Source of the DNA: Actinomycetota bacterium
GTDB lineage: Bacteria > Actinomycetota > Thermoleophilia > Gaiellales > Gaiellaceae
Assembly (NCBI GenBank): GCA_005884575.1
Contig: VAWW01000023.1
Coordinates: forward strand, 113,214-150,053
Direction of reading: 5' to 3'
DNA length: 36,840 nucleotides
The position numbers and the translations under genes were made by a program. The notes below the pieces were generated by a model. It saw nothing but the letters and a program-made list of their open reading frames with translations, was not told where the DNA came from and did no database searches. This document shows positions 9,821-27,552 of this stretch, piece after piece; position 1 is the first letter of the stretch, and each line of letters opens with the position of its first letter.

Positions 9821-9838
9821 TGAGAACCCCCGTTGCGG

Positions 9839-9844
9839 ATTATC
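9839..9844 (-). promoter_or_regulatory. candidate -10 box for the TOPRIM gene
   Basis: Read leftward this is GATAAT, about 19 bases before the TOPRIM start codon. It lies inside the only AT-rich patch of the 58-base divergent gap between 9820 and 9879. No good -35 partner is seen. On the other strand the same patch contains TATCAT, which could serve the oxidoreductase at 9879. Confidence 0.3.
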
Positions 9845-9878
9845 ATCGTCAGTCCGCGACAGCGAAAGGACGGCGCCG

Positions 9879-12781: not shown

Positions 12782-13521
12782 TCGAGCGTGCGGCCGCCGT
12801 TGACGGCGAAGCTCTGGCCGGTCACGAAGGCGGCGCCCTCGGAAGCCAGGAATGCGACGGCGCCGGAGATGTCGTCCGCCACACCCTGGCGTCCGACGGC
12901 GACCAGCTCGCGATACGCCTCGAGCTCGGACTCGGGCGTTCCCCGGTGGCGCTCGACGGGGATCCAGCCGGGCTGGATCACGTTGACCGTGATGCCGTGC
13001 GGCCCGAGCTCCTTCGCCCACGCGCGCGTCAGACCCAGCATCGCGGCCTTTGCGGTGATGTAGTGCCCGAGCCCGGCCGTGCCGGTCGTGATCACCTCGC
13101 TGCCGATGTTCACGATCCGGCCGAAGCCCGCCTCCTTCATCGCGGGCGCCGTCGCGTGGAGGAGCAACAGGGGCGCCTTGACGAAGAAGTCGAGCTGGCC
13201 CAGGTAGTCCTCCCAGCTCTGCTGCTCGAGTGAGATGAACGGCTGCGGTCCCGTGGCGTTGTTGACCACGACGAGCGGATCGCCGAGCCGCGTCCGGACG
13301 GCTTCGATCCCGGTCGCGACGGCCGCCTCTTCGGTCACGTCGAACGGGAACGCCTCGGCGTCGACTCCCGCCAACCGGACGGCCTCCACGACACCGGCCG
13401 CCGCGGCGTCGTCCTTGCCGTAGTTGACGGCCACGGCCCAACCGTCTTCGCCGAGCCGCCGTGCGATGGCGGCGCCGAGATTGCGGGACGCGCCGGTGAC
13501 GAGTGCGCAGCGTGCGGCCAT
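12778..13521 (-). CDS. SDR family oxidoreductase
   Basis: The protein has 247 aa. The cofactor motif is TGASRNLG at 9-16 (Asn-Leu in place of the usual Gly-Ile), with NNATG at 87-91. Catalytic Ser141, Tyr154 and Lys158 (YITAK) are present. The end AAFVTGQSFAVNGGRTLD is standard. AGGGAG lies about 7 bases before ATG 13521, and the ATG shares one base with the MetE-like stop (TGATG). It is the last gene of the leftward six-gene operon. Substrate is unknown. Confidence 0.92.
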   Translation of the reverse strand: MAARCALVTGASRNLGAAIARRLGEDGWAVAVNYGKDDAAAAGVVEAVRLAGVDAEAFPFDVTEEAAVATGIEAVRTRLGDPLVVVNNATGPQPFISLEQQSWEDYLGQLDFFVKAPLLLLHATAPAMKEAGFGRIVNIGSEVITTGTAGLGHYITAKAAMLGLTRAWAKELGPHGITVNVIQPGWIPVERHRGTPESELEAYRELVAVGRQGVADDISGAVAFLASEGAAFVTGQSFAVNGGRTLD

Positions 13522-14510
13522 CACAGCTCCCTGCATGCCTGGACGAGCGCGTTGAGCTTCGCGCGCGTGATCTCGAGCGGCACGTGGCCGAAGCCGCACT
13601 CGCTCGTGAGGATCAGCCGCTCGCGGGGGAAGTGCTCGAGCGCGGGCTCGACGCGCGCGCGGATGACATCGGTCGTCTCGATCTCGTCGCTCCGCTGGTC
13701 GATCACCCCGAGCGCGAGATCTCCCTCGAAGGGCCACACCTTCCACAGCTCCATCAGGTCGTAGCCGAGCGTGCAGTGCTCGAGCGAGACCTCGTCGATG
13801 CTCACCGTCGAGAAGGCCGGCACGAGATCGGTGTACTTGGTGAAATAGACGCGCTTGCGCCGCGGGTTGCCGCCGCAGACGTGCAGCGCGACGCGCACGT
13901 GATCGGGCAGCGTCGCGATCAGCTCGTCGAGGATCTTCGCGGCCCACTCGCTCTGCTCCGGCGACTCCGTCCACATCGGCTCGTCGAACTGGACGTAGTC
14001 GCAACCGGCGGCGACGACCTCCTGCAGCTCCTCCGCGAGGACGTTCGCCCACGCGCGGCAGAGTGCCTGGTCGTCCGGGTAGAGGTCGGGCCGCTCGTTG
14101 ACGCTGAACCGCGTCAGGACGTGCGGCCCCGTGACGGTCTGCTTCACCCTGGCGGTCGCGGGCGCCGTCTCGCGCGCGAGCTGCCAGTTGCGCGCGAGCT
14201 CGAACCGCGGGTTCTCGATCGCCCCGATCACGCGCGGGCATTCGATCTCGAATCCGGTCGTGCCGAAGCTCTGCAGCGACATGTCGTCGAACGTGACGCC
14301 GTCGACGCGCCGCTGGTAGAAGTAGTACATGTTCTCGCGGTAGGCCTCGCCGTCCGTGATCACGTCGAGACCGAGGTCGGCCTGGTCCTTCGCCGCCCAG
14401 CGGATCAGCTCGTCGATCTCGGCGCGCTCGAGGCTCGGCTTCTTCATCGTGTCCTCGACGACGTTCGGTCGCGGATAGCTCCCGACCACGGTGTTGCGGA
14501 AGCGGGTCAT
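13521..14510 (-). CDS. MetE-like (cobalamin-independent methionine synthase C-terminal) protein
   Basis: The protein has 329 aa and corresponds only to the C-terminal UROD/MetE-like barrel. Real MetE is about 750 aa with an additional N-terminal barrel. The opening TVVGSYPRP and the element DYVQFDEP (171-178) are family hallmarks. The zinc ligands are visible: His210 and Cys212 (ALHVCGG), Glu in SIDEVSLE (240 or 244) and Cys305 (SECGFGH). Short MetE-like core proteins transfer methyl groups from other donors or have unknown activity. Leftward ATG 14510 overlaps the epimerase stop (ATGA). In this operon, next to a creatininase-family protein and opposite a TMADH-like enzyme, a demethylation role is possible (inference). 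Confidence 0.87.
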   Translation of the reverse strand: MTRFRNTVVGSYPRPNVVEDTMKKPSLERAEIDELIRWAAKDQADLGLDVITDGEAYRENMYYFYQRRVDGVTFDDMSLQSFGTTGFEIECPRVIGAIENPRFELARNWQLARETAPATARVKQTVTGPHVLTRFSVNERPDLYPDDQALCRAWANVLAEELQEVVAAGCDYVQFDEPMWTESPEQSEWAAKILDELIATLPDHVRVALHVCGGNPRRKRVYFTKYTDLVPAFSTVSIDEVSLEHCTLGYDLMELWKVWPFEGDLALGVIDQRSDEIETTDVIRARVEPALEHFPRERLILTSECGFGHVPLEITRAKLNALVQACREL

Positions 14511-15457
14511 ACGGGCTCCAGTCCTCCTGCGAGTCGGGCTTCGTTGATGTGGGCGCGCACGCCTTCGAGGAGCGGGCGCGGACGGAAGCCGAGCTCGCGC
14601 TCCAGCCGCTCGCCGCCCTGCCAGTCGATCAGCGGCGTCGACGGCACGCTCTCGTCGAACTCGATCTGCGCGTCGGGCAGCCAGTGCCGGACTGCATCGG
14701 CGAGCTCGGCGCCGGAGACGCACTCGCCGCCGTTGTTGTACGCGAAGTGCTCGAGCTTCGGGGCGAGCGCCAGCCGGACGAGCTGCTCCGCGCAGTCGTC
14801 CTTGTAGATCCAGGTGTCGCGCGCACGCGAGGAGAAGGGGAGGCGGACGGGCGTGCCGACGGCCGGGTTCGATGCGAACTCGCCCGCCCAGAGAACCGAG
14901 CCGCGCTTGCGCCCGTGGCCGAAGACGATGGCCGGCCGCGTGCAGGCGATGCTGACGCCGCTCCTCTCGACGTACTTCCGGGCCATGAATTCGTTCAGCA
15001 GCTTCATCACGCCGTAGGTGAAGTGGTGGCCGCCCGGTGCGCAGAAGTCGTCCTCGACGACGGGCCGGTCGCCGTACGGCTCCTGCGACGCGCCGTAGAC
15101 CGTCTCGCTGCTCGTGAAGACGAGCCGCTGGAGGCGATGGCGGGCGGCCGCGTCGAACATGTGCGTCATCCCGAGCACGTCGACCCTCGCTCCGAGCGGT
15201 GGATCGGACTCGACCTCGGCGCTCATCAGGTAGGCGAGCTGGATGCAGTGCGTCATGTCGGGCTGCGACGCGAACACCGCCTCGACCGACTGCCGATCGC
15301 CCACGTCGAGGTCGACGAACTCCGCGCCGTCGAGCCTCTGCGCGACGTCCGCGTCCACCGCGATGTCGCCGACGACGACCGGAATCCCGCGGCCGCGCAG
15401 GTTCCGGACGACGCTCGCGCCGATGAACCCCGTGCCGCCGGTGACGAGGAACTTCAC
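14507..15457 (-). CDS. NAD-dependent epimerase/dehydratase family protein (extended SDR)
   Basis: The protein has 316 aa. GGTGFIG is at 7-13, an acidic end of strand two (GDI) favours NAD, and TSSETVYG is at 115-122. The catalytic YGVMK (Tyr148, Lys152) is intact. RPAIVFGHGRKRG and DTWIYKDDCAEQLVRLAL follow as in sugar-nucleotide epimerases and in uronate or D-erythronate dehydrogenase-like members. It overlaps the creatininase gene (GTGA) and the MetE-like gene (ATGA). It may act on a free sugar derivative, since no nucleotidyltransferase is nearby. Confidence 0.9.
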   Translation of the reverse strand: MKFLVTGGTGFIGASVVRNLRGRGIPVVVGDIAVDADVAQRLDGAEFVDLDVGDRQSVEAVFASQPDMTHCIQLAYLMSAEVESDPPLGARVDVLGMTHMFDAAARHRLQRLVFTSSETVYGASQEPYGDRPVVEDDFCAPGGHHFTYGVMKLLNEFMARKYVERSGVSIACTRPAIVFGHGRKRGSVLWAGEFASNPAVGTPVRLPFSSRARDTWIYKDDCAEQLVRLALAPKLEHFAYNNGGECVSGAELADAVRHWLPDAQIEFDESVPSTPLIDWQGGERLERELGFRPRPLLEGVRAHINEARLAGGLEPV

Positions 15458-16206
15458 GCGAGCCGTCCGCGCAGCAGCTCGGTCAGGCGTTCGACGACCG
15501 CGGCCAGCAGCCGCTCGCCCTTCTCCGCCGTGCCCTCGTGGGCAAGTCCGTAGACGCCGTCCGGCGCCTCCTCGCGCACGCGCGGCGGCCAGTAGATGCC
15601 CGGGACGAGCGCGACCTCCTCCATCGGCCGGCCGAGCGGCTGCTCGAGCGCCGCGCGGTCGACGAGGTCGGGCTGGAGGTGGAGCTGCAGCGACGTCTCC
15701 ATCTCGCCCGCGTGGCCGATGTGGCCGCCGTCGTGCGCCGCGAGCTCCGCCATCGTCTCCGGCACGAGGTGCCAGTAGGTGATCGGGAAGACGTCGATGC
15801 CCTCCACGTTCGCACGGGTTGCCACGGTCTCGATCGTGGCGGCGTTCCCTCCGTGGCCGTTCAGGAGCACGATGCGCGTGAAGCCGTTCGTCGCGACGCT
15901 GCGGCAGAGGTCGAGGAGCAGCGCCGAGAGCGACTCGACGGTCAGCGACAGCGTCCCTGGGAACACGTGATGGTAGTGCGAGACGCCCCAGGGAACCGGC
16001 GGCGCGACGAGCACCGGCGGATCGTCACAGCTCGCCGAGAGGCGCGTCGCCACGGCCCACGCGTCGCTGATGTCCGTGTTGAGCGGGAGGTGCGGCCCGT
16101 GCTGCTCTATCGCGCCCACCGGGATCACGACGACGGCGCCCGCGTCACGTGCGGCCGCCACCTCGTCGCGGCGCAGCTCGGCCCAGAGGAGGGGGGATCG
16201 TGTCAT
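15454..16206 (-). CDS. creatininase family protein
   Basis: The protein has 250 aa. The metal centre is complete: Glu34 and His36 (GAIEQHGPHLPLNTD), Asp45, His118 (LNGHGGN) and Glu168 (GHAGEMETS). Creatininase family members are metal-dependent amidohydrolases of ring amides or cleave peptides (MftE). Others hydrolyse formamide or amide intermediates. ATG 16206 has GGAGTGAG before it and lies 15 bases after the SDR stop. There is no mycofactocin gene nearby, so an MftE role is unlikely. It probably opens a cyclic amide or lactone in the pathway of this operon (inference). Confidence 0.9.
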   Translation of the reverse strand: MTRSPLLWAELRRDEVAAARDAGAVVVIPVGAIEQHGPHLPLNTDISDAWAVATRLSASCDDPPVLVAPPVPWGVSHYHHVFPGTLSLTVESLSALLLDLCRSVATNGFTRIVLLNGHGGNAATIETVATRANVEGIDVFPITYWHLVPETMAELAAHDGGHIGHAGEMETSLQLHLQPDLVDRAALEQPLGRPMEEVALVPGIYWPPRVREEAPDGVYGLAHEGTAEKGERLLAAVVERLTELLRGRLA

Positions 16207-16221
16207 GCGCTCACTCCATTC

Positions 16222-16896
16222 TCAGCTCGCGAGGAACCCGCCGTCGACGGGAATGACGGCGCCCGTGACGTAACGTGCGTCGTCGGAGAGCAGCCAGGAC
16301 ACCGGGCCGGCAACGTCCTCCGGCACGCCCCAACGGCCCATCGGGATGCGGGCGTCGGTCGCGCTGCGCCGCGGCTCCTCCATGTCTGCGGTCAGCTCAG
16401 TCTCGATGAAGCCGGGCGCGATCGCGTTGACGCGCACGCCCCTCGCAGCGAGCTCGTTCGAGAGCGCCTTCGTCAGCTGTGCGACACCGCCCTTGCTCGC
16501 GGCGTACGCGGCGACATTCGTCCCGCCGACGAAGGACGTCATCGACGCGAGCAGGACGATCTGCCCCCCGCCGGCCTCGACCATGCGGCGCGCAGCCGTC
16601 TGGGCCAGGACGAAGACGCTCGTGAGATTGACTCGAAGGACGCGCTCCCAGTCCTCGATCGAGTGCTCGAGCGCCGGGCGGCGAACCGCTGTGCCGGCGT
16701 TCGCGACGAGCGCGTCGATCCGCTCGAGCCGCTCGACCGCCGACCGTGCCGCGTCGAGGTCCGAGAGGTCGACTCCGGTCGCCCGCTCGGCCGTCTCCAC
16801 CTGCCACCCGTCCCGGCCGAGGCGTCCGGCGATCGCGTGCCCGATGCCGCGGCTCGCGCCGGTGACGAGCGCGACCCTCTCGCTAGAGGACGCCAT
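16222..16896 (-). CDS. SDR family oxidoreductase
   Basis: The protein has 224 aa. TGASRGIG is at 12-19, NAG at 66-68, Ser118 in LLASMTS and YAASK gives Tyr131 and Lys135. The end YVTGAVIPVDGGFLAS is canonical. It is shorter than average because the region between strands two and three is compressed. ATG 16896 lies within the end of the RraA gene (14-base overlap). It belongs to the leftward LacI-linked operon. Its substrate is unknown. Confidence 0.92.
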   Translation of the reverse strand: MASSSERVALVTGASRGIGHAIAGRLGRDGWQVETAERATGVDLSDLDAARSAVERLERIDALVANAGTAVRRPALEHSIEDWERVLRVNLTSVFVLAQTAARRMVEAGGGQIVLLASMTSFVGGTNVAAYAASKGGVAQLTKALSNELAARGVRVNAIAPGFIETELTADMEEPRRSATDARIPMGRWGVPEDVAGPVSWLLSDDARYVTGAVIPVDGGFLAS

Positions 16897-17563
16897 GCCG
16901 GTCCCAGACGTCCCTGAGCGTCGCGCCGCCGAGCAGCTCGTCGAGGACCGTCGACTCGCGTTGCGCCTTCTGCGTCGCACGCTCGAGCACCTCGGCTTCG
17001 ACCTCTTGCGGCACGACGACCACGCCGTCGTCGTCCGCGAGCACGAGATCGCCCGGCGCGACCATGACGCCGCCGCACGCCAGCGGCACGTCGCGTGCCG
17101 TCAACTCCATCCGCGCCCGGAAGTCGATCGGGCGTGAGCCGGGCACGAACGCAGGGAAGCCGAGCTGCTCGATCTTCGGCGTGTCGCGGATGTATCCGTC
17201 GCAGACGAGACCCGCTGCACCACGGCCGATTGCGGCCGCGGTGAAGAGCTCGCCCCAGAAGCCGCTGCGCTCGCTCGCAGCGGTTCCGGCGACGACGACC
17301 GAGCCCGCCTGCAGTCCGTCGATGAAGGCGATGATGTCGTCATAGGGCCGGTCGGTGTCGTGGCCGACCGGGCCGAAGCCCACGGTCGCGGCGCGGCCGC
17401 TCGCGCGCATGCCCTTGGCGAGCGGACGGATCGCGGCGCTCAGCACCTGATCGCGGCGACCGGCCGCGTCCAGCGCGTCAGACAAGGTTGCCGTGGTGAT
17501 GCGAGAGTCGATCCCGGGTCTCCGTGCTCGCCGATCCAGTGTGGTAAAACGATTTAACCACAC
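16883..17563 (-). CDS. RraA-like family lyase, first gene of the leftward operon
   Basis: The protein has up to 226 aa. SGFWGELFTAAAIGRGAAGLV (100-120) and CDGYIRDTPK (121-130, Arg126-Asp127) are the aldolase and decarboxylase signature of the RraA/HMG aldolase family. APGDLVLADDDGVVVVP follows. The N-terminal ITTATLSDALD is the expected start of the fold at residues 22-32. The only upstream start codon in frame is GTG 17563, which is the last base of the LacI-type operator. A TTG at 17482 would cut into the fold. The true start is therefore uncertain; a rare codon between the two is possible. Functionally it should cleave or decarboxylate a 2-oxoacid. Confidence 0.85.
   Translation of the reverse strand: MWLNRFTTLDRRARRPGIDSRITTATLSDALDAAGRRDQVLSAAIRPLAKGMRASGRAATVGFGPVGHDTDRPYDDIIAFIDGLQAGSVVVAGTAASERSGFWGELFTAAAIGRGAAGLVCDGYIRDTPKIEQLGFPAFVPGSRPIDFRARMELTARDVPLACGGVMVAPGDLVLADDDGVVVVPQEVEAEVLERATQKAQRESTVLDELLGGATLRDVWDRHGVL
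17539..17563. promoter_or_regulatory. LacI-type operator O1 in the divergent promoter
   Basis: This 25-base inverted repeat has core TAAAACGATTTA inside arms GTGTGG and CCACAC. Ten of twelve arm positions pair. The AAA-n-CG-n-TTT core is the classic LacI/GalR family operator form. It lies 19 bases before the LacI gene start and at the beginning of the leftward RraA operon, so it can control both directions and autoregulate. The reverse strand shares the 15-mer TAAATCGTTTTACCA with the second site at 19764. Confidence 0.85.
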
Positions 17564-17581: not shown

Positions 17582-18613
17582 TTGAGGGCGAAGGCTGGTT
17601 CCACCGCAACGACGGTGGCGGACGTGGCGAAAGCCGCGGGCGTGTCGCCGGCGATCGTCTCACGTGTGATCAACGACGACCAGTCGCTGCGCATCCGGCC
17701 CGACACCCGGAAGCGGGTCCTGAGCGCTGCGAAGTCGCTCGACTACACGCCGAACGGCGCCGCGAGGGCGCTGCGTCTCGCGAGCTCCGGCGCGCTGTGT
17801 CTCGTCGCCTCAGACGTCACCCATCCGCTCCACGGCGAGACGCTGCGCGGGGCGCACATTCGCGCCGCGCGTGCCGGTTACGTCGTCCTTCTCGGCGACG
17901 CGGAGGAGCTCGCGCACAACCAGCAGTCGTACGAGAACCTGCTCAGCTCGCGGCGCGTGGACGGTCTCGTCCTGCATCTGAGCGGCCGCTCGGCCGAGGC
18001 GCCGCTGCGCCGGCTGGCCGAAGCTCGCGTGCCGACGGTGCTCATCAACTCGCGGATGCGAGGCCGTGGTTCCGTGATCCTCGACGACGAGGCCGCAGCT
18101 GCGCTTGCCGCCGAGCATCTGCTCGAACTCGGGCACACGCGGATCGGCTTCGTCTCGGGCGTCGCCGCCTCCGACCGGTCGCAGCGCCGCCGCCGCGGCC
18201 TCGAAGCCGTGCTCGAGCAGCAGGGCCTGCGGCTGAAGCCCGAGTGGATCGTCGCCGGCGGCTGGGACGAGCCCGCCGGTCACGAGGCGGTGCTGCGGCT
18301 GCTGCGGCAGCGCGAACGGCCCACCGGCCTCGTCGTCGCCAACGTGCTCGCCGGCATCGGCGCACTGGCAGCGTGCCGCGAGCGCGCCGTCGAGGTGCCG
18401 CACGAGCTCTCCGTCGTCGCGATCCACGACACCTGGTTCACCGATCACACGAACCCGCCGCTCACGGCGGTGAAGACGCCGCTGTGGGAGATGGGCGCCG
18501 CGGCGGTCGACCTGCTGATCGAGATGCTGAACGGCGGCGAGCGCCGGAGCGTCGTTCTGCGCGAGCCGCCTCCCGAGCTGGCGGTCCGGGAGTCGACGGG
18601 GCCGCCGGCGTGA
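17582..18613 (+). CDS. LacI family transcriptional regulator
   Basis: The protein has 343 aa. The N-terminal helix-turn-helix is TTVADVAKAAGVSPAIVSRVIN at 10-31. The hinge helix with PNGAARALR is at 57-65 and a periplasmic-binding-like effector domain follows (GALCLVASDVTHPLHGETLRGA). The TTG start at 17582 is backed by GAGGGAGAG at 7 bases. It is divergent from RraA and followed by a GTGA overlap into the first binding-fold gene. Its likely operators are at 17539 and 19764. The effector is probably the sugar or acid handled by the adjacent genes. Confidence 0.95.
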   Translation: MRAKAGSTATTVADVAKAAGVSPAIVSRVINDDQSLRIRPDTRKRVLSAAKSLDYTPNGAARALRLASSGALCLVASDVTHPLHGETLRGAHIRAARAGYVVLLGDAEELAHNQQSYENLLSSRRVDGLVLHLSGRSAEAPLRRLAEARVPTVLINSRMRGRGSVILDDEAAAALAAEHLLELGHTRIGFVSGVAASDRSQRRRRGLEAVLEQQGLRLKPEWIVAGGWDEPAGHEAVLRLLRQRERPTGLVVANVLAGIGALAACRERAVEVPHELSVVAIHDTWFTDHTNPPLTAVKTPLWEMGAAAVDLLIEMLNGGERRSVVLREPPPELAVRESTGPPA

Positions 18614-19752
18614 TCGAGCTCCGGGGAATCGCGTGGAGCCACACGCGCGGGGTCGGGTCGTTGCTCGTCACGGCACAGGCCGCCGCCGATCTCGATCCGG
18701 AGCTGCGAATCACGTGGGAGCTCCGCTCGCTCTGGGCCTTCGGGGAGGCGCACGTCGGCGAGCTCGTCAACGACTTCGACCTGCTCGTGATCGACCACCC
18801 GATGATCGGCTACGCGGCCGGCGCTGGGATCTTCGAGCCGCTCGACCCGCACGTCCCCGCGGAGTGGCTCGCCGAGCAGGCGCGCGGAAGCGTGGGCGGG
18901 TCGCACGAGTCGTACCAGCACGACGGGCACCAGTGGGCCGCGGCCGTCGATGCCGCGTGCCAGGTCGCCGTCTCGCGTCCCGACCTGCTCTCGAAGCCGC
19001 CGCAGACGCTCGACGAGGTGCTCGCGCTCGCGCGCGCGACCGGCCGCGTCGCGGTTCCGCTCAAGCCGATCGACGCGCTGAGCTGCTTCCTCACGCTGTG
19101 TGCGAACCAGGGTGAGGAGCCGCTGCGCGGCGAGCGCGTCGCAAGCGACGAGCTCGCGCTCCGTGTGCTCGAGCAGCTGCGCGAGCTCGCATCCGTCGTC
19201 CCCCCGGCTTGCCTCTCTTGGAACCCGATAGACGTCCTGAACGCCATGAGCACCGGAGACGAGATCGCGTACTGCCCGTACGCGTTCGGCTACACGAACT
19301 ACGCACGCGAGGGCTACGCGCCGAAGCGGGTCGCGTTCCACGACATCCCCGCCGCCGGAGGGAACGGCTGCGCGGGTGCGACGCTCGGGGGCGCCGGACT
19401 CGCCGTCTCCTCCCGCTCCGCCAACGTCGAAGCGGCGATCGCGTACGTGCAGCGCGTCGCCGATCCGGAGGTCCAGCGCACGACGTACGTGCACGCCGGC
19501 GGACAGCCGGGCCATGCCGACGCCTGGGACGACGACGTCGCGAACCGGATCACAGGCGACTTCTTCCGCAACACGCGTCGCACGATCGAGTCGGCGTACG
19601 TGCGGCCAACCGACGACGGCATCGCCGAGTTCCAGTCCGCGGCGTCGGCCGCCGTGCACCGGTTCCTCTCCGAAGGCGGCAGCGCCGACGCCGTCCTCGC
19701 GGCGCTGAACGACGCGTACGCCCTGATTGACACCTCGCGCCGACCGAGTTAG
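18610..19752 (+). CDS. solute-binding-protein-like protein without signal peptide (first of pair)
   Basis: The protein has 380 aa of the extracellular solute-binding family 1 fold. The first strand (ELRGIAWSHTRG) begins at residue 3. This is followed by LDPELRITWELRSLWAF, FDLLVIDHPMIGYAAGAGIFEPLDPHVPAEWLA and QWAAAVDAACQVAVSRPDLL, all in the order found in sugar-binding proteins of CUT1 importers. There is no signal peptide or lipobox, so it should remain in the cytoplasm. The GTG start overlaps the LacI stop (GTGA). No CUT1 permease lies in the window. It may be a cytoplasmic ligand-binding or enzyme variant; function is unknown. Confidence 0.8.
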   Translation: MIELRGIAWSHTRGVGSLLVTAQAAADLDPELRITWELRSLWAFGEAHVGELVNDFDLLVIDHPMIGYAAGAGIFEPLDPHVPAEWLAEQARGSVGGSHESYQHDGHQWAAAVDAACQVAVSRPDLLSKPPQTLDEVLALARATGRVAVPLKPIDALSCFLTLCANQGEEPLRGERVASDELALRVLEQLRELASVVPPACLSWNPIDVLNAMSTGDEIAYCPYAFGYTNYAREGYAPKRVAFHDIPAAGGNGCAGATLGGAGLAVSSRSANVEAAIAYVQRVADPEVQRTTYVHAGGQPGHADAWDDDVANRITGDFFRNTRRTIESAYVRPTDDGIAEFQSAASAAVHRFLSEGGSADAVLAALNDAYALIDTSRRPS

Positions 19753-19763
19753 GCTCGCAGCGC

Positions 19764-19778
19764 TAAATCGTTTTACCA
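19764..19778. promoter_or_regulatory. LacI-type operator O2
   Basis: TAAATCGTTTTACCA is identical over all 15 bases to the reverse strand of O1 (17539-17563). It sits in the 38-base gap between the two binding-fold genes, ending 12 bases before the TTG at 19791. The position suggests an internal promoter or roadblock for the second binding-fold gene and those downstream. Confidence 0.8.
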
Positions 19779-19790
19779 ATCGCCGCCCTC

Positions 19791-21044
19791 TTGGCTTCGA
19801 CGAAGAAGACCCTCCGGCTCGCCTACCGCACGTTCGTGGGGTTCGAGCGCGCGCTGACACGGCAGACGCGGGCGTTCCAGGAGCTGCACCCGGACGTCGA
19901 CGTCGAACTCGTTCCGTACGACGTCCCGGAGCTTCATGCCGAGATGGTCGCGGGCGACGGAACCACGTCCGGCGACTGGGACCTCTTCCTCTGCGTCACC
20001 GACTGGCTGCCGAGCCTCGTCGCCGACGGAAAGCTCGCCGAGCTCGACGCGTTCCTCGACCTCTCGGCGCCGCCGGAGGACTGGCCGCAGGGGTGGAGCG
20101 ACAGCCTCCTCCGGCAGGCGTCCGACGAGCGTGGCCGCTTCTACGGGATCCCGTACCACGACGGGCCCCAGATGTTCATGTACCGCGCCGACCTGTTCGA
20201 GGACCCGCACGAGCAGGAGCGGTTCGAGCAGGAGCACGGCTACCCGCTCGCGCCGCCCGAGACCTGGTCGCAGTTCCGCGACGTGGCGCAGTTCTTCACG
20301 CGGCCCGAGCGAGACCTCTCCGGCTGCGTCGTGGCCGCGATGGCCGACGGCCACAACAGCGTCTACGACTTCTTCATCCACCTGTGGAGCCGCGGCGGCC
20401 ACGTGCTCGACGGGCGCAAGGCCGCCTTCAACGGCGCGGAGGGCCGCGAGGCGCTGACGTATCTCACCGGGCTGATCCAGGACAGGCTCACGCAGCCCGA
20501 CCCGCGCGCCTACGAGAGCGTCCTCTCGGGCGAGTATTACGCTGGCGGACGCGGCGCGATGATGTGGAACTGGGCGGGCTTCGCCGTCGTCGCCGACATG
20601 CCCGACTCGAATATCCACGGCAAGAACAAGCTCGGGCTGATCCCGCGCGGAGACGGACCCGGCGGGCGCCACGTCTCCCTCAGCGTCTTCTGGGCGCTGA
20701 CGATCCCGAAGGGCTCGCGTGAGCCGCAGCTCGCCTGGGACTTCATCCGGACGGCCGCCTCGCGCGAGCAGGACCTCGTCACCTCCGACGAGGGCAACAT
20801 CGGTTGCCGGCTCTCGACCTGGCGCGACCCGGGGATGCAGGAGCGCTTCCCGTGCTACGCGCTGATCGAGGAGACGCACCGGACGGTCGAGACGCTGCCG
20901 CCGATTCCGGAATACGACGCGATCAACGAGATCCTCAACGAGCTGATCGACGAGGTGCACACGGGCGAGAAGAGAGTGGACGAGGCGCTGGACGAGGCGG
21001 CGGCGCGCACGGACGAGCTGCTCGCCGGGGCGCCCGCTCGATGA
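19791..21044 (+). CDS. solute-binding-protein-like protein without signal peptide (second of pair)
   Basis: The protein has 417 aa of extracellular solute-binding family 1. TLRLAYRTFVGFERALTRQ (7-25) is the first strand and helix, DLFLCVTDWLPSLVADGKLAELD the domain-one ligand wall, and GRFYGIPYHDGPQMFMYRADLFEDP the interdomain segment. The C-terminal half (SEYYAGGRGAMMWNWAG-like, then SVFWALTIPKGSREPQLAWDFI) is standard. The start TTG 19791 gives no signal peptide, and no better start exists upstream. It has no clear ribosome site. The stop overlaps the next gene (ATGA). Like its neighbour it should be cytosolic, which is unusual for this fold. Confidence 0.82.
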   Translation: MASTKKTLRLAYRTFVGFERALTRQTRAFQELHPDVDVELVPYDVPELHAEMVAGDGTTSGDWDLFLCVTDWLPSLVADGKLAELDAFLDLSAPPEDWPQGWSDSLLRQASDERGRFYGIPYHDGPQMFMYRADLFEDPHEQERFEQEHGYPLAPPETWSQFRDVAQFFTRPERDLSGCVVAAMADGHNSVYDFFIHLWSRGGHVLDGRKAAFNGAEGREALTYLTGLIQDRLTQPDPRAYESVLSGEYYAGGRGAMMWNWAGFAVVADMPDSNIHGKNKLGLIPRGDGPGGRHVSLSVFWALTIPKGSREPQLAWDFIRTAASREQDLVTSDEGNIGCRLSTWRDPGMQERFPCYALIEETHRTVETLPPIPEYDAINEILNELIDEVHTGEKRVDEALDEAAARTDELLAGAPAR

Positions 21045-22142
21045 CGATCGACGAGATCCTGGAGCTCGACAAGGGCCCGAAGCTGCCGGAGTCGCGCGAG
21101 CGCGGGATCGGCATCGTCGGCGCCGGCGCGATCGTCAACGCCGGTCACCTGCCCTCGTACCGCAAAGCAGGGTTCAACGTCGTCGCGATCGCCGACACGA
21201 ACCTCGAGGCGGCACAGGAGACGGCACGCGAGTGGGGCGTGCCGGCGGCGTACCGCTCGGTCGACGAACTGCTCGAGGATTCGAAGGTCGAGGTCGTCGA
21301 TATCGCGGTCACGCCAAACGCGCAGTTCCAGATCGCGTCGAAGGCCTTCGAGGCGGGACGGCACGCGCTGTGCCAGAAGCCGCTCGCGGAGACCCTCGAG
21401 CCGGCGATCGAGCTCGTGCAGCGCGCCGAACGGGCGGGCGTGCGGATGGCCGTCAACCAGCAGATGCGCTGGGAGGGCGTCGTCCGGACCGCGAAGCTGC
21501 TGATCGACGCCGGCTGGTACGGCGAGCTGATCGGCGGCCTCTTCGACGTGAACATCATGGAACATCATGACCGACTGGCGCATGTGGCCGTGGATGGCCG
21601 AGCGCGAGCGGCTCGAGTACCTCTACCACTCGGTCCATTACTTCGACAGCATCCGCCACCTCTACGGCGAGCCCGAGAGCGTCGTCGCGACGACCGCGCG
21701 CGCGCCCGGCCAGCACGCACAGGGCGAGTCGCGGACGTTCACCGTCGTCGAGTACTCCGACACGTTGAAGGTCGCAGTCGTCGTCGACCACAACAACTGG
21801 GGCCCCGAGCCGCGCGCGGTCGTCCACACTGACGGCACCGACGGCAAGTCGGAGGGGACGCTCGGCGTCCTCTACGACTACCCGGTCGGCCGGCCGGACA
21901 CGTTCCGCTTCTACTCGCGCGTGCAAGGGCCCGAGCACGCGTTCGAGCGCCGCTTCACGGAGCGGTGGATCCCGGACGCGTTCGTCGGCCCGATCGGCGA
22001 GCTCCTCTCCGCGATCGAGGAGGACCGCGAGCCGCTCACGTCGGGGCGCGACAACCTCAGGACCCTGCGCGTTCTCATGTGCGCATACCGGTCGGCGGAC
22101 GAGGGACGGCGCGTCCGGATCGACGAGATCGAGCTCCCGTGA
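21041..22142 (+). pseudogene. Gfo/Idh/MocA family oxidoreductase, frameshifted by a 10-bp duplication
   Basis: The first part (ATG 21041) has the dinucleotide motif GIVGAGAIVNAGH at 24-36, VVAIADTN and CQKPLAE (Lys113, in the usual E-K-P position). It stays in family register to FDVNIM at about 21559. The second part from 21567 resumes the family sequence (MTDWRMWPW, then LYHSVHYFDSIRHLYG) in another frame and ends at 22142. The break is an exact duplication of GAACATCATG (21550-21559 and 21560-21569). Removing one copy restores a 364-codon frame of normal length. The first frame would otherwise run to 21832 with unrelated sequence. The break could be a real mutation, or an assembly error. 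It starts by ATGA overlap and ends by GTGA overlap with the CoA-transferase. Confidence 0.85.
21550..21569. repeat. 10-bp tandem duplication that causes a frameshift
   Basis: Two exact copies of GAACATCATG lie end to end. Ten bases shift the Gfo/Idh/MocA gene by one. The second copy ends in ATG 21567, which allows a restart in the frame of the second half. Replication slippage would explain it. Confidence 0.9.
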
Positions 22143-23275
22143 CGCTTCCGCTCGAAGGCCTCTTCGTCCTCGACTTCAGCCAGTACCTCGCCGGGCCGTC
22201 GGCGGCGCTGCGGCTCGCCGACCTCGGCGCGCGCGTGCTGAAGATCGAGCGGCCCGGAACCGGCGAGCCGACGCGCGCGCTCAGCCTCGCGGGGCTCGAG
22301 CTCGACGGCGACAGCCTGCTCTTCCACACGATCAACCGGAACAAGGAGAGCCTCGCCGTCGACCTGCGCGACCCGGAGGAGCTCGAGCGTGTCAAACGGC
22401 TGGTCGAGCGAGCCGACGTCCTGATCCAGAGCTTCCGCCCCGGGGTGATGGAGCGGTACGGGCTCGACTACGACTCCGTGTCGAAGCTGAACGAGCGGAT
22501 CGTCTACGGCTCGACGTCCGGTTACGGCGAGAGCGGCCCGTGGCGCGACCGGCCAGGCCAGGACCTGCTCGTCCAGGCGCTCTCCGGCCTGACGTGGCTG
22601 AACGGGAACCGCGACGACCCGCCGGTGGCGTTCGGGCTCTCGATCGTCGACACCCTCGCCGGGGCGCATCTCTGTCAGGGCATCCTCGCGTGCCTCGTCC
22701 GCCGCGGCGTGACCGGGCGCGGCGGCTTCGTCGAGGTCAGCCTGCTCGAGTCGGCGCTCGACCTCCAGTTCGAGGTGCTGACCTGCCACCTGAACGATGG
22801 CAACCGGCTGCCCGTGCGCAGCGAGATCGGGAGTGCGCACCCGTACGTCGGCGCGCCGTACGGCATCTACGAGACCACGGATGGCTTCGTCGCGCTCGCG
22901 ATGGGGTCCGTGCCGCTGCTCGGCCAACTGCTCGGGCTCCCCGACGTCGAAGCCATCGATGACCCGAAGGACTGGTACGAGCGCCGCGACGAGATCAAGG
23001 CCCGGATCGCCGGGGCGCTGAAGACCCGCCCGGTGGCGGAATGGGTCGAGAAGCTCGGCGGAGCGGGGCTCTGGGTCGCCGAGGTGATGCGGTGGCCGGA
23101 GCTGCTGGCCCACGACGCCGTGAAGGAGCTCGAGATGGTCGTCGAGGCCGGGGACGGAGCGCGCAGGTTCCGCACCGTCCGCGCGCCTTTCCGGATCGAC
23201 GGCGCGATCCCGCCCTCGTCCGCGGCGAGCCCACGGCTGGACGAGCACGACACGCTGCCCGGGGAGGCCGCGTGA
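22139..23275 (+). CDS. CaiB/BaiF (family III) CoA-transferase
   Basis: The protein has 378 aa. The start [33 protein letters not shown] is the family hallmark. [11 protein letters not shown] is at 67-77, SGYGESGPW at 127-135 and the catalytic aspartate is Asp142 in [13 protein letters not shown]. These enzymes move CoA between acids through an aspartyl thioester. The protein is compact, with a shorter second half than the usual 390-430 aa, but the linked-dimer architecture is plausible. GTG 22139 overlaps the stop of the frameshifted gene and the MaoC start overlaps its own stop. It implies that a pathway acid is activated as a CoA thioester, which is unusual for a sugar regulon. Confidence 0.93.
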
Positions 23276-23739
23276 AGATCGTGTCGAGGCACTTCGAGGA
23301 GTACGAGATCGGCGAGACGCGGACGACGCTCGGCCGCACGATCACCGAGGCGGACGTCGTGCTGCACGCGGGCCAGACCGGCGACTTCTATCCGCACCAC
23401 ATCGACGCGGAGTGGGTGAAGACGCAGCCTTTCGGCCGGCGGATCGCGCACGGGACTCTCATCCTCTCCGTCGGCGTCGGAATGACGGCTGGCGACATCA
23501 ATCCGCTCGCGTTCAGCTACGGCTACGACCGGATCCGCTTCGTCCGTCCCGTGCACATCGGCGACACGATCACCGTGACGGCGACGATCGCCGCGAAGCG
23601 GGACGACCCGAAGCGCCCGGCGCAGGGATTCGTCGACGAGGAGGTCGCCGTGACCAACCAGCACGGCGACGTGGTCCTCGTGCTCACGCACGTCTACTCA
23701 ATCGAGAGAGCGGAGGTGGCCGACGTCGCTGATTCGTGA
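23272..23739 (+). CDS. MaoC family dehydratase ((R)-specific enoyl-CoA hydratase type)
   Basis: The protein has 155 aa with one hot-dog domain. [26 protein letters not shown] at 36-61 carries the hydratase 2 catalytic Asp38 and His43 and the AHG turn (59-61). [26 protein letters not shown] at about 82-107 is the standard following part. It hydrates or dehydrates CoA-linked enoyl or hydroxyacyl groups. It starts in the stop of the CoA-transferase gene (GTGA), so activation and (de)hydration are coupled in this operon. Mesaconyl-CoA-like or deoxy-acid substrates are possible but not shown. Confidence 0.92.
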
Positions 23740-23785: not shown

Positions 23786-24757
23786 ATGAGCAAACGGCTC
23801 GGCATTGCGATCGTGAGCTTCCTCGTCCTCGTCGTGGCGGCCACCGTCGGCGCCACCGCGCAGGGCAAGACGAACAAGACGTACACGATCGCGATCGACA
23901 ACGGCTCGGGCTACGGGTTTCCGTTCCCGGCCGCCGAGGGCAAGGGCGTCGCCGCCATGGCGAAGAAGCTCGGCGTCAAGGTCGTCGCCAACCTCGACGG
24001 CAAGAACGATCCGCAGAAGGAAGCGGCGAACGTGCAGGACATCATCGCGCTCAAGCCCGACGGGGTGCTGATGATGCCGTCCGACGCCGCCGAGGCTGCC
24101 AGCCTCGTCGACAAGCTGTCTGCGGCGGGCATCAAGGTGATCTCCGTGCACAGCCTCGTCGGTGCGAACGCGACGATCAAGAAGGTGTATCCCAAGCTGA
24201 CGGCGCTCGTGATCGAAAACGAGGTCGGCGCGTCGGCGGTCGCCGGCAGGATGGCGAAGAAGGCCCTGCCGAACGGCGGCAAGGTCGGGCTCGTGCTCGG
24301 GCAGGCCGGCTACGCCGAGGTCGGCCTCCGCAAGACCGGTTTCCTGCAGGGGATCAAGGGCTCGAAGCTGAAGGTCGTGACGGAGCAGCCCGGCGACTGG
24401 ATCGCGACGAAGGGGCAGGCCGCGTGCCAGGGCATGCTCTCGGGTAATCCCGACATCGCGCTCTTCTACTCGGAGTCGGACGACATGGGCGTCGGCTGCG
24501 CGAAGGCCGTACAGAACGCCGGCTCGAAGGCGCTCGTCATCGGCATGGGCGGCTCGAAGCTCGGCATGGCCGCGATCAAGAAGGGCGGCGCGTACTACGG
24601 CACCGTCTGTTACAAGCCGTACGACGAAGGCAAGATCGCGATGCAGCGGATGTACGACAACCTGACGGGCAAGCTGCACGACAAGGCGAAGCTCGTCTTC
24701 TACGACACGCCCGGGATCACGAAGGCCAACGCGAGCAAGTGCGTGGGCCAGTGGTAG
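23786..24757 (+). CDS. sugar ABC transporter substrate-binding protein (RbsB-like)
   Basis: The protein has 323 aa. Residues 1-26 are a Sec signal (MSKRLGIAIVSFLVLVVAATVGATAQG) with an A-T-A cleavage region. The mature part starts KTYTIAIDNGSGYGFPFPAAEGKG and has IIALKPDGVLMMPSDAAEAASLV, GGKVGLVLGQAGYAEVGLRKTGFLQG, and ALVIGMGGSKLGMAAIKKGGAYYGTVCYKPYDEG, as in ribose-type binding proteins. AAGGAGAGG precedes ATG 23786 by about 9 bases. It is followed by the ATPase and permease genes of the same importer and has the only export signal in this module. Ligand unknown. Confidence 0.93.
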   Translation: MSKRLGIAIVSFLVLVVAATVGATAQGKTNKTYTIAIDNGSGYGFPFPAAEGKGVAAMAKKLGVKVVANLDGKNDPQKEAANVQDIIALKPDGVLMMPSDAAEAASLVDKLSAAGIKVISVHSLVGANATIKKVYPKLTALVIENEVGASAVAGRMAKKALPNGGKVGLVLGQAGYAEVGLRKTGFLQGIKGSKLKVVTEQPGDWIATKGQAACQGMLSGNPDIALFYSESDDMGVGCAKAVQNAGSKALVIGMGGSKLGMAAIKKGGAYYGTVCYKPYDEGKIAMQRMYDNLTGKLHDKAKLVFYDTPGITKANASKCVGQW

Positions 24758-24784: not shown

Positions 24785-26284
24785 GTGCTCGAGCTGACCG
24801 ACATCACCAAGCTGTTCCCCAATGGGACGCTCGCCCTGAAGGGCGTCGACTTGACCGTCGCGCGACGAACGGTGCACGGCATCGTCGGAGCGAACGGCGC
24901 CGGCAAGTCGACGCTCTTCAAGATCGTCGCCGGGGCGCTCGCGCCCACCTCGGGCGAGATCCGGTGGAAGGGCGAGCCCGCCGACTGGAGCTCCCCCGCG
25001 GCCCCGCTGGCCGCGGGGATCTCCACCATCTACCAGCACATCCCGCTCGTCCCGACGCTCTCGGTCCTCGAGAACGTGTTCCTGAACGACTTCCGCGGCC
25101 TCTATGCGCGCGGACGTCTGCTGAAGCGGTACCGCGAGATGCTGAACCGCGTCCAGTATGAGCTCGATCCCGACCTGCGCGTGTCCGAGCTCTCGATCGG
25201 ACAACGCCAGATGGTCGCGATCATGCACGCGCTCGCCCACGGCGCCGAGCTCGTGATCATGGACGAGCCGACGGCCTCGCTCGCGCAGGGGGAGCGCGAG
25301 CTCGTCTTCGACACCGTGCGGCGGCTGCGCGACCGCGACGACGTCACCTTCATCTACTGCTCGCACTTCCTCGACGAGGTGCTGAGCCTCACCGACCGGA
25401 TCACCGTGCTGCGCGACGGGCTCGTCGTCGCGGACGAGCCGACCGCTGAGCTGACGGAGGAGAGGCTCGTCGACGCGATGGTCGGCAAGCGCCTCGCGTC
25501 GCTCGAGTCGCTGCGCCAGCGCGAGACGCGCGAGGACGCGCCAGCCCTCCTCGAGGTGCACGGCCTCGATTCGCCCGGCCGCGTCTCGGATGTCTCGTTC
25601 ACCGTCCACGAGGGCGAGATCGTCGGTCTCGCCGGCCTGCTCGGGTCGGGCCGTTCGGAGATCCTGCACGCGATCTTCGGGAGTGACCGCAGCGCGAAGG
25701 GCAGCGTGATCCTGCGCGGCCGGGAGATCGACCGCTCCGCGCGCGCCGCCGTCCGTTCAGGCATCGCGCTCGTGCCCGAGGAGCGGATGCGTCAGGGGCT
25801 CGTCCCGGACTGGGAGATCTGGCGGAACACCAGCCTGCCGGATCTGACCGAGCTCTCGGCGGCGGGTGCGCTACCCACGCGCGCCAGGGAGGTGCAGCGT
25901 GCGGAGCGGGCGATCCGGGACCTGCGGATCGTCGCGCGGTCGGCCGACGCACCGGTCTCGTCGCTGAGCGGCGGCAATGCGCAGAAGGTCGTCTTCGCCA
26001 AGTGGCTCTACGGGAATCCGTCGGTCTTCCTGCTCGACGAGCCGACGGTCGGGGTCGACGTCGAGACGAAGGCCGAGATCCTCGAGCTGATCCGCCGCTT
26101 CGCGCGCGAGGGCAAGGGCGCCGTCGTCGTCTCCTCCGAGTTCGAGGAGATCCTCGCGGTCGCGCACCGCGTGCTCGTGATCAGCCGCGGGCGGATCGTC
26201 GCCGAGCGGCGTGCGGCCGAGACGTCGGAGGAGGAGCTGCTCGCGCTGGCGAGCGGCCTCGGAGCGAAGGAAGGAGTGGCTTGA
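24785..26284 (+). CDS. sugar ABC transporter ATP-binding protein, two domains (RbsA-like)
   Basis: The protein has 499 aa and two fused ABC domains. Domain 1 has Walker A GANGAGKST at 35-43, the modified signature LSIGQRQ near 136 and IMDEPTAS. Domain 2 begins near 252 with a degenerate P-loop GLLGSGRSE near 283-291. Its signature LSGGNAQK is near 393 and LLDEPTVGVD near 416. The degenerate second P-loop is normal for RbsA-like proteins. The GTG start follows GGAGAG at about 5 bases. The stop overlaps the permease start (TTGA). It powers the importer with the binding protein at 23786 and the permease at 26281. Confidence 0.94.
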   Translation: MLELTDITKLFPNGTLALKGVDLTVARRTVHGIVGANGAGKSTLFKIVAGALAPTSGEIRWKGEPADWSSPAAPLAAGISTIYQHIPLVPTLSVLENVFLNDFRGLYARGRLLKRYREMLNRVQYELDPDLRVSELSIGQRQMVAIMHALAHGAELVIMDEPTASLAQGERELVFDTVRRLRDRDDVTFIYCSHFLDEVLSLTDRITVLRDGLVVADEPTAELTEERLVDAMVGKRLASLESLRQRETREDAPALLEVHGLDSPGRVSDVSFTVHEGEIVGLAGLLGSGRSEILHAIFGSDRSAKGSVILRGREIDRSARAAVRSGIALVPEERMRQGLVPDWEIWRNTSLPDLTELSAAGALPTRAREVQRAERAIRDLRIVARSADAPVSSLSGGNAQKVVFAKWLYGNPSVFLLDEPTVGVDVETKAEILELIRRFAREGKGAVVVSSEFEEILAVAHRVLVISRGRIVAERRAAETSEEELLALASGLGAKEGVA

Positions 26285-27552
26285 GTACCTCGGCCACCAC
26301 GACGACGGGCGCGAACGGCTTGCGCGCCCGGCTCGGCGCTGTGAACACCGAGGCCTTCCGGCTGCACAACGCGGGCGTCGTCTATGCCCTGTTCGTCCTG
26401 GTGGTCACGCTCGTGATCGCGACGGCGGTTACGGGGCGGCCTCCCTACCTCTCCGCGATCAACACGGCCAATGTCTTCGACCAGGCCACGCAGGTCGGGA
26501 TCCTCGCCGTCTTCATGACGATCGTCCTGATCAGCGGCAACTTCGACCTCTCGATCGGCGCGACCGGCGCGCTCGCTGCGGGCGTCACGCTGATGACGTT
26601 GAACCATGCGTCCGTCTGGGTGGCGATCCTCGTCGGGCTCGGGATCGGCACGCTCGTCGGGCTCGTGAACGGCCTGCTCGTCCAGATCGTCGGCATCAAT
26701 GCGTTCATCGTCACGCTCGGAGCGCTGACCGCCGTGCGCGGCGTGCTGCTGATCCTGACCAACGGCGAGTCGATCGTGACGGCGAAGACGAGCCTCAATT
26801 CGCTCGTCGACGGCCCGGCGCCGCTCAACCTCCGCTGGACGTCCGTGGCCGTCGGCGCGATCGTCGTCGCGGGCGGGCTCTACATGATCAAGCGGACCCG
26901 CGACCTGCAGCGCCCGTTCGACCTGGGAGCAGCCGGGGCCGTGCTCGCGGGCCTCGCGCTCGTGATCGTCGGCATTGCCGCATTCCCGACGCACTGGCCG
27001 CTGACGAAGCAGGTCTGGGTGCTCTTCGCGGTCACGATCGTCGCCTGGTTCGTGCTCTCGTACACCGCGGTCGGCCGCCGCCTCTACGCGGTCGGCGGCA
27101 ACACGGAGGCTGCGCGGCTGTCCGGAATCGACATCGCACGGTACAAGATCGTCCCGTTCGTGCTCAACGGCTTCGCTGCGGCCGTCGTGGGCATCCTCTA
27201 CGCGGGACGGTTCGAGGCGATCAACCCGAACGCGCTCTCCGGGATCGAGCTGACGGTACTGGCGGCCGCGATTCTCGGCGGCACGTCGCTGTTCGGCGGT
27301 TCCGGCAGCGTCGTGAAGACCGTCGTTGGCGCGCTGATCCTGTTCGTGCTCGCGAACGGATTCAACATCCTCAACCTCGGCGCCAACTACCAGCCGCTGA
27401 TCCAGGGGCTCGTGATCGTCGGCGCCGCTGCGATCTACGTCGTCGCCGGACGCCGCGCGTCGGCCCAGAAGGTGCGAACGGGTGAGATCCACGATCTACC
27501 GAGCTCGCCGGACGAAGTCGAGCGCCAGAGCGTCGGTGAGCCGACGCGATAG
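26281..27552 (+). CDS. sugar ABC transporter permease (RbsC/XylH-like)
   Basis: The protein has 423 aa, longer than RbsC (about 320) and closer to XylH (about 390). ISGNFDLSIGA at 84-94 is the family signature. The conserved ELTVLAAAILGGTSLFGGSGS lies near residue 325. The middle has two additional helices (GAIVVAGGLYMI and LAGLALVIVGIAAFP, roughly 205-245), accounting for the extra length. TTG 26281 overlaps the RbsA-like stop and has AAGGAG before it. It is the last gene of module 5; a hairpin follows at 27555. Confidence 0.93.
   Translation: MSTSATTTTGANGLRARLGAVNTEAFRLHNAGVVYALFVLVVTLVIATAVTGRPPYLSAINTANVFDQATQVGILAVFMTIVLISGNFDLSIGATGALAAGVTLMTLNHASVWVAILVGLGIGTLVGLVNGLLVQIVGINAFIVTLGALTAVRGVLLILTNGESIVTAKTSLNSLVDGPAPLNLRWTSVAVGAIVVAGGLYMIKRTRDLQRPFDLGAAGAVLAGLALVIVGIAAFPTHWPLTKQVWVLFAVTIVAWFVLSYTAVGRRLYAVGGNTEAARLSGIDIARYKIVPFVLNGFAAAVVGILYAGRFEAINPNALSGIELTVLAAAILGGTSLFGGSGSVVKTVVGALILFVLANGFNILNLGANYQPLIQGLVIVGAAAIYVVAGRRASAQKVRTGEIHDLPSSPDEVERQSVGEPTR

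Follow-up and report, generated by a model that had tools for sequence, protein, structure and literature searches.

What is a sugar-binding fold doing in the cytosol, in an operon with a coenzyme A (CoA)-transferase? The question is raised by a stretch of 36,840 nucleotides from an Actinomycetota bacterium of the family Gaiellaceae (GenBank assembly GCA_005884575.1, contig VAWW01000023.1, positions 113,214 to 150,053), which was analysed at its full length and is called the window here. It encodes two solute-binding-fold proteins, SBP1 and SBP2, together with a LacI-family regulator, a Gfo/Idh oxidoreductase, a class III CoA-transferase of the CaiB/BaiF type and a MaoC-type hydratase. The observation that two signal-less binding-fold proteins lie in a CoA-transferase operon is confirmed at the coordinates listed in the table below. 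Binding proteins of the CUT1 fold are usually read as parts of sugar uptake; SBP1 follows the CoA-transferase instead. We give about even odds to the proposal that SBP1 works in the cytosol as substrate-binding partner of a dedicated class III CoA-transferase, in the predicted breakdown of a sugar-derived acid.

No export signal is recognisable in either protein of the window: SBP1 overlaps the LacI gene and the open frame of SBP2 has 425 codons for a protein of 417 residues. Among the loci L001–L082, an in-frame stop closes the frame at most 15 codons upstream of the first conserved strand in 49 of 82 SBP1 genes and 33 of 45 SBP2 genes. More than 25 codons are open upstream of 20 SBP1 and 7 SBP2 genes, none of them with a 13-residue hydropathy above 1.5. 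Of 239 relatives longer than 300 residues (of 240 listed, 120 from each family, with P0031 dropped), nearly all begin close to or exactly at a common first strand. Non-hydrophobic N-terminal extensions occur in some and others are cut short, and an 11-residue hydropathy above 2.0 was reached only by P0223 (2.04, in an extra N-terminal stretch). We also compared 13 annotated plasmid loci, selected from 145 plasmid records with a match so that different genera were represented and annotation was present. Taken from the annotated starts, the SBP1 N-termini of these loci scored 0.07–1.44, and two SBP2 N-termini scored 0.2 and 1.21. Among the loci retrieved, with L110 counted in, 13 importer-type binding proteins scored 0.87–3.22, with 12 of the 13 at 1.59 or above; the remaining one (L112) looks truncated relative to its homologues. 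A cruder test of the 60 residues upstream gave hydropathy maxima of 1.49 for 91 SBP1 frames and 1.77 for 50 SBP2 frames, but it missed the lipoprotein signal of L106, which sits outside those residues on the upstream side, and the in-frame-stop test was used instead. The in-frame stops and the low N-terminal hydropathy bear out the original prediction, made from the window alone, that these proteins have no signal, and extend it to their homologues. A homologue with a normal signal, which that prediction had named as a counter-case, turned up once, at L106 (2599–4029): an exported lipoprotein beside permeases, SBP2-like but of another subfamily (305 bits). L106 is the nearest exported relative of SBP2 that we saw; the cytosolic families end somewhere.

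The window's contig (C82) carries none of the 85 matches to the permease family PF00528 in the window genome, in agreement with the predicted lack of a CUT1 permease at the module. The module's RbsBAC importer was correctly said to have a separate exported binding protein, since RbsB begins with an evident signal sequence. Searches of 20 SBP1 genomes, chosen by way of the loci, for permeases at E ≤ 1e-5 gave no match in 8, one to three weak matches in 11 and 7 matches in Neiella; a control Paenibacillus genome had 113. Eight genomes (G398, G399, G403, G404, G406, G407, G408 and G415) have a single SBP_bac_8 match, and its coordinates place it inside the SBP1 locus, with the same contig assumed from those coordinates. 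At the 13 plasmid loci the nearby importer was of CUT1 type (six loci), CUT2 type, TRAP, RhaT or MFS, or there was none, and some loci had two kinds. The presence of SBP1 is independent of any one importer type, and the conclusion that SBP1 and SBP2 are not importer parts is supported.

SBP1 instead keeps the company of a CoA-transferase. A dedicated CaiB-type gene accompanies SBP1 in 73 of 80 loci. This and the other per-locus counts of module genes were made from six-frame pieces with profiles from the same loci and are therefore biased towards similar sequences. In 63 of 78 loci the gene that follows SBP1 on its strand is CaiB; the two overlap in 45 loci, and in 30 of these the overlap is exactly 4 bases. 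Some genes in GC-rich loci such as L041 and L051 were overlooked or divided by gene calling. On these counts, the CaiB neighbour is conserved, which the original prediction had left as a question. Six of the 7 remaining genomes have the same CaiB subfamily elsewhere, five of them at 56–73% identity; in the genome of L012 it consists of two fragments (71% and 76% identity). The CaiB of the window is 59% identical to the SBP1-partner CaiB of a Paenibacillus locus (L022). Across 396 genomes of the phylum, including the window's, the CaiB subfamily was found at E ≤ 1e-90 solely in the window's own genome and SBP1 at E ≤ 1e-70 in three, again including the window's. In the other two of these three genomes, G061 and G268, SBP1 adjoins a CaiB with 49% and 40% identity, respectively, to the best cluster member.

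The plasmid loci show the same arrangement: the CoA-transferase adjoins SBP1 in 12 of 13, and in the 13th one hydratase gene lies between them. Compared by genus and not record by record, plasmid counts for CaiB (at E ≤ 1e-60, which admits CaiB of 36–42% identity) and SBP1 (at E ≤ 1e-20) run parallel in Sinorhizobium (89 and 90), Ensifer (10 and 9) and Azospirillum (7 and 7), with Rhizobium as the exception (26 and 6). Sinorhizobium meliloti pSymB carries a minimal version of just two genes, CaiB and SBP1. At L109 (7839–8909; pSymB of S. meliloti 1021) the CaiB frame ends earlier than in ABS7 (L113), and the neighbouring SBP1 is signal-less.

Some of these genes are also fused. A query joining SBP1 to CaiB gave 433 hits at E ≤ 1e-30, and among the 120 listed, from which fusions were counted, there were 4 SBP1–CaiB fusions, 2 of them with clean junctions (P0286 and P0313), and 114 CaiB–CaiB fusions, many of the named ones from Hymenobacter. 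These common double-domain proteins suggest an obligate pair of CoA-transferase domains. Asp171 of the window CaiB aligns with an aspartate in formyl-CoA transferase chains that we take to be catalytic from its role in that enzyme. Every first CaiB copy (63 of 63) and every second one (55 of 55) has this residue. Among the 114 CaiB–CaiB fusions it is present in all second halves and in 111 first halves, with a gap in the other 3. The window CaiB has a CoA_transf_3 domain over the whole protein, and its seven NCBIfam matches are all far below the cut-offs. In MaoC of the window, GDFYPHHID fits D..P.H.D, presumably the active-site motif of MaoC, which is present in 44 of 49 MaoC proteins of the loci. 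Judged by genomic coupling and fusions, SBP1 is likely to be a partner of CaiB. The absence of a signal, the coupling to CaiB and the CUT1 fold support the central idea of the original prediction, which placed the two binding-fold proteins in the cytosol and in a CoA-transferase pathway rather than with an importer.

Counted at E ≤ 1e-3, there were 797 relatives of SBP1 among 7,996 candidates scored and 359 of SBP2 among 7,997. In all, 539 DNA stretches were found to encode a relative. By our own placement, from the names in sequence and annotated records, the families span at least eight bacterial phyla, with members in Bacteroidota, Balneolota (Fodinibius), Pseudomonadota, Bacillota, Chloroflexota, Acidobacteriota, Dormibacterota, Verrucomicrobiota and Actinomycetota; the haloarchaeon Halostagnicola larsenii also has SBP2. 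SBP1 and SBP2 are distinct families of one superfamily, because a comparison of their profiles gives 98% probability yet 17% identity. No NCBIfam model matches either at E ≤ 1e-3, their Pfam domains are SBP_bac_8 and SBP_bac_1 only, and public records annotate both families as ATP-binding cassette (ABC) substrate-binding proteins. The predicted models have mean confidence scores (pLDDT) of 94.8 for SBP1 and 95.9 for SBP2, and both are confident CUT1-type folds. In a comparison with the PDB, the nearest structures among the listed neighbours, which include maltose-binding protein fusions, are sugar-binding proteins, and the models of both SBP1 and SBP2 match CUT1 binding proteins, a comparison that the original prediction had suggested. 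All 134 SBP1 sequences aligned, near-duplicates among them, share residues W9, R13, W36, D57, D62, D114, W306 and R332. With residues near the cleft placed by alignment and secondary structure only, R332 of SBP1 aligns with R356 of a glycoside-binding protein that was solved as R356A mutants, and, compared with CUT1 importer binding proteins, SBP1 has different residues at the W287 and D118 positions. In SBP2, the ligand-contact tryptophan of glycoside-binding proteins aligns and the aspartate is one column off.

Several observations weigh against a partnership of SBP1 and CaiB. At L024, SBP1 is present and no CaiB of the dedicated type was found in the genome at E ≤ 1e-60, and in the window other genes stand between SBP1 and CaiB. 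The window genome has a second, diverged SBP1 (L103, 9370–10413 on contig C23 of G000; ~37–40% identity) near MaoC-like, SDR and enolase-superfamily genes, with no CaiB relative in the 20 kb retrieved for this locus; the only dedicated-type CaiB of this genome is the window's own. Two of the four SBP1–CaiB fusions have scrambled SBP1 tails and look like frameshifts, and the clean ones are known from assembled sequences only. The Gfo/Idh gene of the window is frameshifted at a 10-base tandem repeat, with its halves in different frames, which the original prediction had overlooked, and because this gene is broken the pathway may not run in the window genome. The two binding-fold proteins had been proposed as a pair; SBP2 is indeed present in 46 of 80 SBP1 loci, but it was not found in the other 34, some of them on short contigs, and SBP2 is therefore not part of the core. 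CUT1 permeases in the operon, named at the outset as evidence to the contrary, do occur: permeases lie within ~10 kb of SBP1 in 8 of 80 loci, by a profile that also takes in other BPD_transp_1 permeases and so not CUT1 alone, and a CUT1-type importer is near SBP1 in 6 of the 13 plasmid loci, each with its own binding-protein gene. At L013 and L070 a separate SBP-like gene with a hydrophobic N-terminus adjoins the permeases, and L081 has a permease pair on the opposite strand and, after it, a protein of 522 residues whose N-terminus is hydrophobic. Finally, the conserved cleft-type residues of SBP1 fit an enzyme as well as a carrier.

The last point bears on the main rival to the partner reading, an independent enzymatic role in which the cleft of SBP1 and SBP2 became an active site that works next to CaiB and not as its subunit. 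Candidate activities would be those of a lactonase, dehydratase, epimerase or lyase on a sugar acid or its CoA ester. The invariant polar residues are many and shared across several phyla, canonical loci are without obvious genes for some of the expected steps, and related folds include the cytosolic enzymes MqnA, MqnD and Thi5/NMT1. The closest structures are nevertheless sugar-binding proteins and SBP1 is tied more tightly to CaiB than to any other step, so that we regard both an enzymatic role and these activities as rather unlikely. MqnA, MqnD and Thi5 chains were absent among the 50 matches listed per structure search, which is not evidence of difference.

A role as cytosolic sensors of a pathway compound, acting on a LacI, IclR or GntR regulator, would fit the adjoining regulator genes (LacI in the window, IclR in 45 of 80 loci) and the binding-protein fold of LacI itself. 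It is very unlikely, as the type of regulator varies among LacI, IclR and GntR, with no regulator annotated nearby at some loci, while CaiB stays, and as SBP1 has no DNA-binding or signalling domain. Less probable still, and already largely contradicted, is that SBP1 and SBP2 are ordinary importer binding proteins whose starts were mis-called, which use another export route or which decayed recently. Their fold and their closest relatives of known structure are those of importer binding proteins, public annotation agrees, and L106 combines an SBP2-like protein, a lipoprotein signal and neighbouring permeases. Against this, most of the SBP1 and SBP2 genes counted above have in-frame stops too near the first strand for a signal to fit, 8 of the 20 genomes searched have no CUT1 permease match, and signals are present in the importer binding proteins encoded at the same loci. 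Decay is unlikely because the families are conserved across phyla.

If SBP1 does act as the partner of CaiB, the pathway might run as follows. The sugar would enter through any importer at hand, in the window one of RbsBAC type, and would be oxidised by Gfo/Idh or an SDR, after which a lactonase would open the product to the acid. SBP1, with SBP2 where present, would close on the acid in its cleft and pass it to a CaiB dimer, which would draw on another CoA thioester to form the CoA ester of the acid. Water would then be removed or added by MaoC, whose place a crotonase-type hydratase would take in other lineages. With two active CaiB domains, CoA could be recycled from the product to new substrate. 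In the window, LacI bound to O1 and O2 would control the operon. It is possible, though we put it forward only tentatively, that an importer binding protein moved to the cytosol and became the substrate-capturing subunit of a CoA-transferase, and that such proteins form a widespread unrecognised class of CoA enzymes.

The layout of the operon agrees with its first description as a chain of stop-start overlaps with one interruption. The LacI/SBP1, SBP2/Gfo, Gfo/CaiB and CaiB/MaoC junctions are 4-base overlaps, and the sole gap (19753–19790, 38 bases) contains O2. The 14-mer GGTAAAACGATTTA occurs twice in the window against a mean of 0.00 in shuffles, and at no more than one mismatch O1 and O2 are the only copies in the whole genome assembly (4.16 Mb in 130 contigs, 91% complete). 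The frame break in Gfo/Idh could be either a real recent mutation or an assembly fault.

Table. Features of the module and its flanks (positions in the window).
Feature	Position	Strand	Basis
RraA/aldolase-like protein, divergent from module	16883..17563	-	PF03737 E 5e-35
O1 operator copy GGTAAAACGATTTA	17543..17556	+	putative LacI operator
LacI-family regulator	17582..18613	+	PF00356, PF13377
SBP1, signal-less CUT1-fold, 380 aa, GTG start	18610..19752	+	PF13416, SBP_bac_8 E 7e-9
O2, second copy of the GGTAAAACGATTTA operator 14-mer	19764..19777	-	in sole intergenic gap
SBP2, signal-less CUT1-fold, 417 aa, TTG start	19791..21044	+	PF01547, SBP_bac_1 E 6e-29
Gfo/Idh/MocA oxidoreductase, N-terminal part up to frame break	21041..21569	+	PF01408
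10-base tandem direct repeat at Gfo/Idh frame break	21550..21569	+	read from sequence
Gfo/Idh/MocA oxidoreductase, C-terminal part, other frame	21567..22142	+	PF02894
Class III CoA-transferase (CaiB/BaiF type)	22139..23275	+	PF02515 E 1e-97, residues 5-370
MaoC-type hydratase/dehydratase	23272..23739	+	PF01575 E 1e-19; best PDB sequence match 4ffu
RbsB-like exported binding protein, CUT2 importer	23786..24757	+	PF13407; signal sequence visible
RbsA-like ATPase, 499 aa	24785..26284	+	open frame; name from translation; relatives, same order in L003
RbsC-like permease, start codon uncertain	26281..27552	+	open frame; relative, same order in L003

Genes around SBP1, annotated from one representative per gene cluster, give hints to the substrate. 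The module genes other than CaiB vary more: the 80 loci contain Gfo/Idh in 54, MaoC in 56, a crotonase-type hydratase in 16 and a lactonase-like amidohydrolase in 10. The best NCBIfam match of the amidohydrolase is L-fucono-1,5-lactonase, below cut-off; a KduD-like SDR is likewise below its NCBIfam cut-off and a FucP-type symporter above the family cut-off. Further neighbours are enolase-type sugar-acid dehydratases, RhaT, GH78 and GH106 rhamnosidases, GH2, aldehyde dehydrogenase and crotonase. The cluster of Halostagnicola larsenii combines SBP2 with a CoA transferase, an AMP-binding protein, MaoC, two Gfo/Idh proteins, an L-rhamnose mutarotase, an amidohydrolase and an alpha-L-fucosidase. 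The simplest common reading of these neighbours would be that a sugar-derived acid is turned into a CoA ester.

A pathway specific to rhamnose was considered and has been weakened. On this view L-rhamnose would be used through the CoA-dependent module in place of the isomerase route, an idea raised by the alpha-L-rhamnosidases (GH78, GH106) and RhaT or FucP-type symporters that adjoin SBP1 in Bacteroidota, by the L-rhamnose mutarotase near the module in Halostagnicola and Nitratireductor, and by the finding of RhaA in 0 of 29 module genomes. However, 28 of the same 29 genomes have a RhaI-type isomerase homologue (486–517 bits, below the strict cut-off of 647), so the isomerase route likely exists there, and the rhamnosidase clusters were seen only in Bacteroidota loci. 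We consider this replacement improbable.

Elsewhere in the window, the minus strand beside the module (13521–16206) encodes a cobalamin-independent methionine synthase-like protein, an epimerase-like frame and a creatininase-family protein. A long open frame on the plus strand (9833–12781) has a fumarylacetoacetate hydrolase domain in its C-terminal part. The protein at 30661–31953 (minus strand) has SBD_N and NBD_C domains, a pair that we take to be that of four-carbon acid sugar kinases.

If SBP1 is a subunit of a CoA-transferase, hundreds of proteins annotated as ABC substrate-binding proteins would belong to a new class, and sugar acids would be trapped by a closing clam-shell and passed straight to CoA activation. 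The lack of a signal peptide in both families, and the link of SBP1 to a CoA-transferase in place of an importer, would mean that many transporter predictions need correcting. The module points to a CoA route for sugar-derived acids, and we found no description of such a route, or of an SBP–CaiB module, in the full text of open-licence papers. Whether a protein of transport can turn into a subunit of an enzyme could be tested cleanly with it, and the two-gene version on pSymB of S. meliloti brings that test within reach of a standard laboratory organism.

Among known systems, the oxidative catabolism of deoxyribonate resembles the module in its use of CoA esters of a sugar acid: its description reports acyl-CoA intermediates and either a beta-keto acid cleavage enzyme or a CoA-synthetase with a thiolase (PMC6365646). 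The terms 'caib' and 'solute-binding' have 0 occurrences in the text of that paper. SBP1 and SBP2 share their fold with the binding proteins of CUT1 importers, such as MalE3 (6dtq), a trehalose/maltose-binding protein (1eu8) and SmoF (7ofy), but they have no export signal, do not depend on a permease and are encoded with a CoA-transferase. MqnA, MqnD and Thi5/NMT1 are cytosolic enzymes of the periplasmic-binding-protein fold and thus a precedent for a binding fold at work in the cytosol, as proposed here; the top structure matches listed for SBP1 and SBP2 are CUT1 proteins. In the carnitine system, CaiB and CaiD are a class III CoA-transferase and an enoyl-CoA hydratase-type enzyme that act on a hydroxy acid with recycling of CoA. 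The likeness lies in a CoA-transferase and a hydratase in one operon (CaiB and MaoC in the window), whereas the module has tandem or fused CaiB, either MaoC or a crotonase, and sugar-type neighbours; we know of no binding-fold protein in the carnitine system. To our knowledge, benzylsuccinate CoA-transferase (PDB 9fn0, presumably BbsEF) has no binding-fold partner either, and its substrate is other than that of the module, but its two different CaiB chains (A and B) form the kind of enzyme that the tandem and fused CaiB genes suggest.

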